Below, one piece after another: positions 55,164 through 58,596 of a DNA stretch of 64,000 nt. Location of the stretch: assembly GCA_023511795.1 (NCBI GenBank), contig JAIMAU010000008.1, forward strand, positions 1-64,000, written 5' to 3'. The notes under the pieces are model-generated. The model was not told the DNA's origin and did not search any database. It saw only the letters and a list, made by a program, of their open reading frames with translations. Both the position numbers and the translations under genes were made by a program. The stretch comes from Armatimonadota bacterium (GTDB lineage: Bacteria; Armatimonadota; UBA5829; DTJY01). Position 1 is the stretch's first letter. Every line of letters starts with the position of its first letter.

Positions 55164-57050
55164 TTAATTCAGCTTATTTATATCAGCTGGTTGTCTGGCA
55201 CGAATTACGGGGATTCTTATTTCTGTATATGCAGGAATTTCAATGGTGCTGATGCCGGTCACGCTTACAAAATCGTTTTTCTTAACGGAAGGCGTCCCAG
55301 CTGTGTAAACCTTAAGTCCTGTAAGGCCTGAACCATCATTTAGATTGGATCCATCGTCTACATATATGAAATTTCGACCAACACTTGTAACTTTGCCCCA
55401 TGTTTTTACCAACAACCCTGTGTTCGGCAGCCCAATTCCGCCTGTTATGCCTCGATATCCCAACTCCTGCCCTCCAACATCTTTATTTGAAATACCTAGT
55501 GGAGCTACTGTTATTCCATTGCCTACTATTGTGACGCGTGGATTGATAATCGCTAATTCGCCGTTTGGGAAATCCTCAGGCTTTGCTGTGTAAAGCTCGC
55601 CAGCAACTTCCACAAGGTCGCCTATTGACGTTGGTGTGGTTACCGATTGGCCATAATAGACCATAATTCCTGCTGACCGATCAGGTTCCTCGATATAGAA
55701 TCTATCCCCAAACTGTACCGTTCCTGCCGGTACAGGCTTTGCAGATAGTTTGACAAACTCGCCAATTTCGGCGTTCCAAAGCTCTCCGATGGTTAAATAA
55801 GTTTCAAACGCCTCACTGAGTGCCCGATATGCGTTAATTCGTCCCCAGCCTGTATACCTATCCCAACCTGCTGTGCTGATATCGTCGCAGGTTTGCTCAA
55901 TTTGGTCGCGCACTTGTTGGTTTGTCCAGTCGGGGTGCGCTGACCATATGAGCGCAGCTAGGCCAGAAACAAATGGTGTTGAGGCTGAAGTTCCACTCAG
56001 TATCTCGAAGCCATCGAATAACCATGACCAATACCACCAGGGTACACTGCTAATTATGAAGCTCCCCGGCGCCATGACATCGAGCGAATCTCCATAGTTG
56101 CTTCCGCCTTCGCCCCAGTCGGCAGCTGTGCAACGCATATCATATTCATTGGTTGCACCCACTGAGATTGTTGCTGGATAGTATGAGGGATAATGCGGGT
56201 CAGTTCGGTCATCAAGGCCGTCGTTGCCGCTTGCAGCGGTAAGTACACATCCAGCGGCCCATGCTTCATTCACTGCAGCTTCCAAAGCTGGCACATGCAA
56301 ATATGTGCCAATGCTCGTATTGATAACTTTGGCGCCGTGCTCAACAGCCCAGATTATGCCTTCGGCTGCGTCTGCTTCTTCTCCATAACCGTCGGCGTTC
56401 AACACCTTAATTGGCATAAGAAGGGCATTCCAATTAACTCCAGCTATTCCCGTGTAGTCGTCTCCCCACGCGGCGGCAATTCCTGATACAAAAGTACCGT
56501 GCATGTGGTCGTCTTCTGTATTTGATGAACCATCAATCGCATTGTAGCCAGCGACAATCTTACCTGCTAAGTCAGGGTGGCTGGAGTCTATGCCTGTGTC
56601 TATTATTGCAATGATTATGCTATCTGAGCCAGTGTTTATATCCCATGCCTCAGGCGCATGTATATCGTATCGTCCATAGCTGTTATAAAGACCCCATTGC
56701 AGGAAGAAAAGCTCGTCGTTTGGAAACAAATCGGCGTATATTATATGGTTGGGGCTAGCGAAATTTATATGAGGGTTGCGTGAAAACTCGGCTTGCGCTT
56801 CTTCGATTGTTTTCCCTTTTGGCAGACGGAGGCGGTATACATTAATCCGCGGGATAACTTCTTTGATGGAAGCACCGTGTTCTTTAATTATCTTATCTGC
56901 TGGCGCACCTTTTCGAAATTGCACAAGTATTTCGCCAGGGACGTATTTCCCGTGTCTTGGAAGCGAATGCTTCCATGGTAGTGCAAAGCAAAACGAAGGC
57001 AGAATCAAGAAATAAATGGCTAATATTGAAGCGCATCTAATGCTTTTCAT
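55164..57050 (-). CDS. Secreted subtilisin-like serine protease (S8) with C-terminal OB-like domain
   Basis: A 628-residue exported protease from the ATG at 57050 (a TTG 21 bases earlier is possible). After the signal peptide comes a fervidolysin-type prodomain (VPGEILVQFRKGAP to about residue 105). The catalytic triad is D151 (IIDTGIDSSHPDL), H184 (DHMHGTFVSG) and S355 (GTSASTPFVSG). From about residue 425 the C terminus is beta-rich with alternating blocks such as GDLVEVAGELYT and GKVTSVGRNFIYVDDGS, resembling an OB-fold cell-surface module. Probably extracellular. Confidence 0.93.
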   Translation of the reverse strand: MKSIRCASILAIYFLILPSFCFALPWKHSLPRHGKYVPGEILVQFRKGAPADKIIKEHGASIKEVIPRINVYRLRLPKGKTIEEAQAEFSRNPHINFASPNHIIYADLFPNDELFFLQWGLYNSYGRYDIHAPEAWDINTGSDSIIIAIIDTGIDSSHPDLAGKIVAGYNAIDGSSNTEDDHMHGTFVSGIAAAWGDDYTGIAGVNWNALLMPIKVLNADGYGEEADAAEGIIWAVEHGAKVINTSIGTYLHVPALEAAVNEAWAAGCVLTAASGNDGLDDRTDPHYPSYYPATISVGATNEYDMRCTAADWGEGGSNYGDSLDVMAPGSFIISSVPWWYWSWLFDGFEILSGTSASTPFVSGLAALIWSAHPDWTNQQVRDQIEQTCDDISTAGWDRYTGWGRINAYRALSEAFETYLTIGELWNAEIGEFVKLSAKPVPAGTVQFGDRFYIEEPDRSAGIMVYYGQSVTTPTSIGDLVEVAGELYTAKPEDFPNGELAIINPRVTIVGNGITVAPLGISNKDVGGQELGYRGITGGIGLPNTGLLVKTWGKVTSVGRNFIYVDDGSNLNDGSGLTGLKVYTAGTPSVKKNDFVSVTGISTIEIPAYTEIRIPVIRARQPADINKLN

Positions 57051-57227
57051 TTGTATCGCACTACTTTCCAAGCGATTTTTTCTAATTCGCTTGCATGTCG
57101 GTGTACGAGGGGTTGTTGGTGGTTACTAGTTTTCATTTTTGAAGACTTTACTTTGCATTTCTACTCTATCACCGACAGCTCAAATTGTCAACTAACGGCT
57201 CACAAACCAGCAATTTTACTAGCTTGC

Positions 57228-57256
57228 TTGACACTTTTGCCCATGGTTGTTAGAAT
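57228..57256 (+). promoter_or_regulatory. Sigma-70-type promoter of the terminated leader
   Basis: TTGACA (57228-57233), 17 bases, TAGAAT (57251-57256); start expected near 57263. Confidence 0.7.
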
Positions 57257-57262
57257 AATAGC

Positions 57263-57411
57263 GATCTCCTATCTCAATTATATAAAACGTATTTGGTATA
57301 AAAGCGATAGCAGGCAATGTAATTTACCTGCTATCGCCCTGGAGAGAGGTGATCGTATAGCGTAGGTATTAAACATGCAAGCAATTCGGACGCTATACTA
57401 TTTTTTGCTAC
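57263..57411 (+). ncRNA. Candidate small RNA or attenuator leader
   Basis: Downstream of the promoter at 57228-57256 lie an 11-bp perfect hairpin (GCGATAGCAGG at 57304-57314 with CCTGCTATCGC at 57327-57337) and a terminator (GTATAGCGT at 57355-57363 with ACGCTATAC at 57390-57398, then a run of six T at 57401-57406). This makes a discrete transcript of about 150 nt, ending 96 bases before the next gene. It may be an independent sRNA or a transcription attenuator for that gene. Confidence 0.55.
57355..57406 (+). terminator. Intrinsic terminator inside the leader
   Basis: Nine-bp perfect stem with a 26-base loop and a six-T tail; see the leader entry. Confidence 0.75.
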
Positions 57412-57506
57412 CCCATTGCAATCGTATTCCAAACCTATGGGCATAGCTAGCCTGGAGGGAATACATTTATTGAAGCATTGCATACTATACCAGGATGGTG
57501 ACGGTT

Positions 57507-57761
57507 ATGGACCTGGCAGCTATAGAATCAAGACTGATGTCAGGCGAGGAATTGAAGGTCAAGTATAAATATCCTCGGCAATTGAGTCCTGGGGAAAAGG
57601 GTTCGGCTTATGGGGTACGCAGCGACAAATTGGTTGATGTTTCCACAGAACTACGGCGATTTTATGTAATTTTTCGCGGCCAGACGCCAATCTGGATTGA
57701 AGAGAATGAAGTAATAGAAATCACCCCTGATGATGGTGTGTATCAGGAGTTCGAGGAGTAG
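57507..57761 (+). CDS. Small hypothetical protein
   Basis: About 84 residues from the ATG at 57507; an ATG at 57495 is also possible. The ribosome site is weak in either case. The sequence is charged, with blocks DLAAIESRLMSGEELKVKYK, RRFYVIFRGQTPIWIEENEV and an acidic end (YQEFEE), and suggests a small alpha/beta fold. No family recognised. It lies downstream of the terminated leader, so its expression may depend on read-through. Confidence 0.6.
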   Translation: MDLAAIESRLMSGEELKVKYKYPRQLSPGEKGSAYGVRSDKLVDVSTELRRFYVIFRGQTPIWIEENEVIEITPDDGVYQEFEE

Positions 57762-57795: not shown

Positions 57796-58596
57796 TTACG
57801 GCAATTCAGCATACTCTTGTGCGGCAATTACAAAGGCTTTGAATAGACGTTTACATGGCTTGTAGATGTATTCATCTGATGTTTTCTCTGGATGCCATTG
57901 GACCGCTATTATCCAAGGATGGTTCAATCCCTCAAGTCCTTCGATAAGTCCATCTGGTGCAAACGCAACGGGCATGAGCCTTGGGGATTTTTCCTTTGCG
58001 GATACTCCTTGATGATGGCGGCTATTTACTTTCTTGATATCTTGTCCGAGAATTTCATATAAGCGACTATCCTCGCGAATTTGTATGTCGTGTGAGCTAC
58101 TCGAACCCGATTTATGCTCTGGCTCATCTTCTTTGGTATATGATTTATGCCTTAGGCCAGTGCGAACATCTTTCACTAAACTGCCACCGAGTGCGACATT
58201 CAAAACCTGAAAGCCGCGGCATATCCCAAGAATAGGCATGCCCTTTAAGTAGGCTGCACGAATAAGCGGAAGTTCGAGCGCATCGCGCTCGGGGTCGCAG
58301 TCCATTTTATATTTCGTAATCAATTCCTCCGTTGAGAGTTTTTCATCCCCCAGCTCAGTTCGCGAAGTATAATTATCAGGGTGAACGTCCCGACCGCCAC
58401 TTAGGAGGAGACCGTCAATTTGGACTAGAGCCTCATGGAGCTCTTGGGGGTCGAGATATGGAGAGGGACAGAGAAATATTGGCGCTCCGCCCGCATCTCG
58501 AATAGCATCAGCGTAGGGTTGGTAATCCTTAAGCTGGTCGTCTGGCGGTGAGTTTTTGGCTGTCCCCGTCGTAATTCCGATTACAGGTTCTTTCAT
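57796..58596 (-). CDS. Gamma-glutamyl-gamma-aminobutyrate hydrolase-like (peptidase C26)
   Basis: A 266-residue class-I glutamine-amidotransferase-like hydrolase. The triad is C126 (GICRGFQ), H235 and E237 (QWHPEKT). PuuD and related enzymes cleave gamma-glutamyl amides; the DGLLLSGGRDVHPDNY block typical of the group is present. Probably cytoplasmic. The ribosome site AAGGAAG lies before the ATG and the promoter at 58620-58649. Substrate is inferred only at family level. Confidence 0.9.
   Translation of the reverse strand: MKEPVIGITTGTAKNSPPDDQLKDYQPYADAIRDAGGAPIFLCPSPYLDPQELHEALVQIDGLLLSGGRDVHPDNYTSRTELGDEKLSTEELITKYKMDCDPERDALELPLIRAAYLKGMPILGICRGFQVLNVALGGSLVKDVRTGLRHKSYTKEDEPEHKSGSSSSHDIQIREDSRLYEILGQDIKKVNSRHHQGVSAKEKSPRLMPVAFAPDGLIEGLEGLNHPWIIAVQWHPEKTSDEYIYKPCKRLFKAFVIAAQEYAELP

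Follow-up and report, generated by a model that had tools for sequence, protein, structure and literature searches.

A candidate structured leader RNA ahead of a small-protein gene in one family of Armatimonadota, with a putative terminator confined to one genus

Upstream of a gene for an 84-residue protein in an Armatimonadota bacterium lies a promoter followed by an RNA that is predicted to fold compactly and to end in a terminator-like stem. We favour, with a probability of about 0.5, the reading of this RNA as a cis-acting leader that belongs to the small gene and is restricted to its lineage, in which attenuation or termination would be specific to the genus studied here. A sequence-only reading of the same DNA (64,000 nt, referred to here as the window) had left the choice between an independent small RNA and a leader of the attenuator or riboswitch kind. 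The layout that it described is real, and the linkage of the element to the same gene in 3 of 3 genomes favours a cis-acting leader and disfavours an independent small RNA.

Results

The promoter, TTGACA-17-TAGAAT with an extended TG, lies on the plus strand, as does the whole element, with TTGACA starting at 57228 and TAGAAT ending at 57256. It is an 11/12 match and, by criteria of our own, one of only 8 sites of at least 11/12 that the 64-kb window holds on its two strands, so that the "good promoter" of the earlier reading was borne out. From the promoter spacing a 5' end can be predicted at 57263 and from the T tract a 3' end at 57406, which would give a transcript of ~144 nt. A second promoter (TTGACA-17-TAGAGT, 10/12) is found on the minus strand at 57191-57163 and points away, toward a divergent subtilase (peptidase S8) gene identified with Pfam (55164-57071, minus strand).

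A 146-nt RNA from this region folded at -45.2 kcal/mol with a z score of -4.55, and 0 of 200 shuffles were equally stable. When the fold was extended into the 84-aa gene, the z score weakened to -1.61 and 14 of 200 shuffles were as good; hence, the structured part is the leader itself, as far as the T tract. The fold is organised by a stem, P1, whose 5' strand (57263-57275) sits at the predicted transcript start and pairs with GAGAGAGGUGAUC (57342-57354) in eleven pairs with two mismatches (pair probabilities of 0.82-1.0). As P1 closes the predicted 5' end, the RNA would form one compact fold. Enclosed by P1 are an AU-rich hairpin, P2 (57278-57301; pair probabilities of 0.3-0.9), which is absent from the predicted fold of a second genome of the genus (G001) and is probably dispensable to the element, and P3 (57304-57337), the 11-bp hairpin noted earlier, which was confirmed with 57304-57314 pairing with 57327-57337 at probabilities of 0.99-1.0. 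A conserved 22-nt block, TGGAGAGAGGTRAYCGYATAGC (57340-57361), takes in the 3' strand of P1 and continues into the 5' arm of the next stem, stem 2. In the extended fold P1 and the 11-bp hairpin persist, whereas the 5' arm of stem 2 switches to a partner close to the start of the gene; by eye, we did not find this pairing in a genome of another genus of the family (G003). P1, the conserved block and the homologous RNA in another genus all go beyond the earlier reading.

Stem 2 begins at the base directly after the 3' strand of P1 and, together with a T tract, resembles an intrinsic terminator (57355-57406). It is a perfect 9-bp stem (57355-57363 with 57390-57398) with a 26-nt loop; a single T (57399) and a single A (57400) come next and lead into T6 (57401-57406). 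Again by our own criteria, the two strands of the window together hold 5 distinct terminator-like sites with a perfect stem, this one included. Because of its 26-nt loop, it is missing from a simple terminator scan, which accepts loops of 3-8 nt only. The T tract ends ahead of the start codon at 57507, as had been claimed. The description of a "full terminator" holds for the 9-bp stem with T6; "full" is somewhat generous, as the 3' arm is worth only ~8.5 kcal/mol when deleted (-45.2 vs -36.7). A stem followed by a U tract is found in the window's genus, G001 having T7. In G003 no U tract follows stem 2 and the scan lists no terminator on the strand of the gene; termination is therefore conserved only within the window's genus.

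P1, P3 and the terminator stem are mutually compatible and all form together in the fold prediction, so that structure alone predicts termination and provides no antiterminator. A search of the folds for an antiterminator partner found none, and static pair-probability folds with the 3' arm of the terminator omitted gave no strong competing fold. The earlier suggestion that the first hairpin is an aptamer or antiterminator partner is thus unsupported: the stems co-form, neither an antiterminator nor an Rfam riboswitch was found and the T tract is absent in G003. This compatibility of the stems, with no competing alternative structure found, is what would be expected of a structured but unregulated leader, whose stems protect the mRNA or set a constant level of expression, the 26-nt-loop terminator allowing a fixed partial read-through. 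A genome (G004) with the orthologous gene and no element found also fits such a leader. However, the 22-nt block is conserved beyond the need of the stems alone, and we consider this explanation doubtful.

The element is narrowly distributed. Of the 28 genomes of the class, 3 have it ahead of the orthologous gene, all of them within the window's family (3 of 5): the window's own genome (G000), G001 and G003. The 22-nt block, allowing up to 2 mismatches, recovered 3 of the 28 genomes, each time upstream of the ortholog, and the reversed control gave 0. In G002 neither an ortholog match nor the block was found. A DNA search of 31 genomes gave strong E-values in G000 and G001 only; the rest were weak, namely 3 short matches spread over two other genomes and 2 self matches of the hairpin on the reverse strand. 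With a covariance model (R1), 291 genomes of the phylum yielded three strong matches, in G000, G001 and G003, at 73.8-93.2 bits; the next match scored 28.7 bits. At E-values up to 1, matches occurred in 136 of the 291 genomes, the best outside the family having an E-value of 1.3e-4 per genome, or ~0.04 over the 291. Seven weaker loci (L040-L046) were checked for the strings GAGAGAGG and GGAGAGAG only: the full block was in none, L040 and L042 hold GGAGAGAG in a different context and the other five hold neither string. A search of viral contigs gave no match, and a scan of genome contigs with A4 found one relative only, in an Armatimonadetes MAG.

An independent small RNA of ~144 nt, with its own transcription and termination and the small gene merely downstream, would account for the promoter, the paired 5' end and the terminator ahead of the gene. 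We regard it as unlikely: the element is directly upstream of the same gene in 3 of 3 genomes that have it, the T tract is absent in G003, and the promoter scans listed no site between the terminator and the start codon in the window and no further one in the rest of the G003 stretch. At the homologous position G003 has identical promoter hexamers, an identical 17-nt spacer and the TG; since the scan gave no second promoter-like site in that stretch, this promoter most likely drives the small gene. The neighbourhood points the same way. A convergent peptidase C26 (PuuD-like) gene (57796-58596, minus strand; Pfam, in the window) is matched by similar ORFs, judged by eye, in G003 and G004 (loci L030 and L031), and its retention hints at a functional or regulatory link with the 84-aa gene. 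The subtilase gene is not a neighbour in G003, where the place upstream is taken by a 169-aa ORF that runs in the same direction and itself lies behind an ABC transporter. With the downstream gene shared and the upstream neighbour different, the RNA is tied to the small gene.

Sequence comparison lends some support to the stems. The leader of G001 is 95 percent identical to that of the window, and over 57257-57420 we counted by eye 8 substitutions and 2 indels, all outside P1, P3 and stem 2. In G003, 10 of the 11 pairs of P3 are kept, 2 of those with a compensatory change, and 1 pair is broken; all 9 pairs of stem 2 are kept, 2 of them changed on both sides, given an allowed 2-nt bulge. Under a simple substitution null, the chance of these outcomes is 0.032 for the hairpin and 0.010 for stem 2, the latter taking the 2-nt bulge as chosen, while a shuffle control of the hairpin covariation gave 62 of 500, which is weak with three rows only. 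The comparison is carried by two independent sequences only, that of the window's genus and that of G003. The sequence-only reading had staked its claim on at least one stem covarying in relatives, and such covariation is observed, on one divergent homolog only.

The 3' strand of P1 is invariant across the compared sequences, and G003 folds a stem related to P1, with AGAGGU. The G003 leader is itself stable (z score of -3.77, with 0 of 200 shuffles as stable). Its minimum-energy fold re-pairs the arms of the hairpin, the conserved hairpin costing 8.8 kcal/mol more in a constrained fold, and in a longer stretch another partner is preferred for stem 2 (-92.1 vs -88.7). In G003 (L005, minus strand, ~1800-1920) the 3' arm of stem 2 can alternatively pair just downstream, in a structure slightly more stable than stem 2.

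A separate observation concerns short motifs in the class. A looser motif, GGARGGATA, behind a -10 box gave 11 matches vs 3 in the reversed control among the 28 genomes and is not clearly enriched. The motif GRAGGATA-N12-YRTNTAA gave 13 matches in the same genomes (L067-L079; e.g., L069, L070, L075, L077 and L078) and 2 in the reversed control. It precedes the ortholog in 5 genomes, and in 7 of the 8 other matches an ORF of at least 60 aa follows on the same strand, 35-113 nt downstream. By eye, the small gene's leaders in other genera mostly retain the 12-nt spacing; the motif was not seen at the window's own 84-aa gene. Resembling promoters of the ECF types, it appears to be a promoter that this class uses with an alternative sigma factor.

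The gene itself (57507-57761, plus strand) belongs to an unnamed family, with matches in 20 of 41 genomes searched, its own included. We place its start at ATG 57507, not at the in-frame ATG 57495, because the MDL position is where the orthologs start. The protein falls into no accepted Pfam, NCBIfam or PHROG family. An AlphaFold2 model from two sequences has one helix and five strands, a topology that fits the Hfq/Sm barrel, with a mean pLDDT of 77.9 for the best model and 39-50 for the other four. Structural matches of the model were to small barrels (Tudor, SH3-like and Hfq rows tied; Z up to 6.2); Foldseek gave no match at an E-value of 0.001, and a search of solved structures by sequence gave one weak match (E-value of 0.013). 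We therefore assign the protein, with moderate confidence and on the basis of the model, to the small beta-barrels (SH3/Tudor/Sm-like). It is not Hfq by profile, as hhalign gave a probability of 0.2 percent against Hfq of this phylum. The genome has a canonical Hfq gene at another locus (G000:C1:408248-408439), and the matches to PF17209 in G000 are on contig C1 and, weakly, on C6, neither being at the 84-aa gene (C8).

Discussion

How the favoured cis-acting leader might work can be proposed from its layout. The sigma-70-type promoter would yield an RNA in which P1 locks the predicted 5' end and encloses the 11-bp hairpin, with the terminator-like stem and T tract directly after P1 and ahead of the small gene. 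In the window's genus most transcripts would then end near 57406, and the small protein would be made from read-through only. A ribosome or an RNA-binding protein, which might be the barrel protein itself, would most likely act at the conserved GAGAGAGGU strand of P1; this strand is the most attractive candidate binding site because it is Shine-Dalgarno-like, being complementary to the tail of 16S rRNA, and lies directly against the terminator stem. In G003, which has the stem and no T tract, any action would be on translation or RNA stability. A bolder version is that the leader constitutes a new RNA class of one family, in which the Shine-Dalgarno-like strand of P1 acts as a sensor and the ribosome or the gene's own barrel protein opens the abutting terminator, giving autoregulated read-through. 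We hold this version to be quite improbable.

A ribosome might also act by translating the leader. A short ORF, ERG(D/N)RIA, shares sequence with P1 and with the 5' arm of stem 2, and its translation would open the terminator, as in leader-peptide attenuation. In its favour, the 22-nt block differs at 4 positions, 3 of which are third codon positions in this frame, and its stop codon in the window, TAG at 57363-57365, lies at the end of the 5' arm of the terminator. However, two of the three third-position changes are equally explained by stem pairing. The frame starts with CTG in the window and with ATG in G003 (CTG in 2 of the 3 sequences), there is no upstream Shine-Dalgarno, the hairpin comes immediately before the start and the frame in G003 is ~34 codons long. 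Such a peptide is therefore a very improbable basis for control. Among other frames through the conserved block, examined by eye, none is kept.

Comparison with Rfam, which the sequence-only reading had proposed as a check, placed the RNA in no family: Rfam 15 gave 0 matches at the gathering score in the window and 0 at the G001, G003 and G004 loci. At E-values up to 10 there were 4 weak matches, all below the gathering score and 3 on the other strand; these were microRNA-type, sagA and coronavirus D-RNA matches, far below their gathering scores, and were dismissed as chance. The element is not 6S RNA (RF00013), whose only match in the genome (90.5 bits) lies at G000:C2:143182-143376. A limited literature search found no paper with "Armatimonadetes" and "riboswitch" or with "Armatimonadota" and "noncoding RNA". 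The element is of interest because the phylum has received little study, the apparent leader belongs to no catalogued family and the protein to which it is tied, with a predicted small-barrel fold, is found class-wide; if the leader is regulated, it gives a handle on the role of the 84-aa protein.

Attenuators based on intrinsic terminators and orphan riboswitch candidates occur in 5' leaders, and the element resembles them in having a promoter, a domain closed by P1 and a terminator hairpin ahead of a gene. It differs in that it has no Rfam family, no antiterminator was found in its folds, the T tract is unconserved in the other genus and only one gene is involved. Autonomous small RNAs, such as 6S, share the length of ~144 nt, the paired 5' end and the Rho-independent-type end, whereas this element is always beside the same gene and the genome's 6S RNA is elsewhere. 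Autoregulated leaders ahead of genes for small RNA-binding proteins (e.g., hfq) similarly combine a structured RNA with the gene for a small barrel protein, here a predicted one; in contrast, the 84-aa protein has no Hfq profile match and the canonical Hfq is encoded elsewhere in the genome. Hence, the structured, terminated leader is of a known kind, while this RNA family appears to be new and small.
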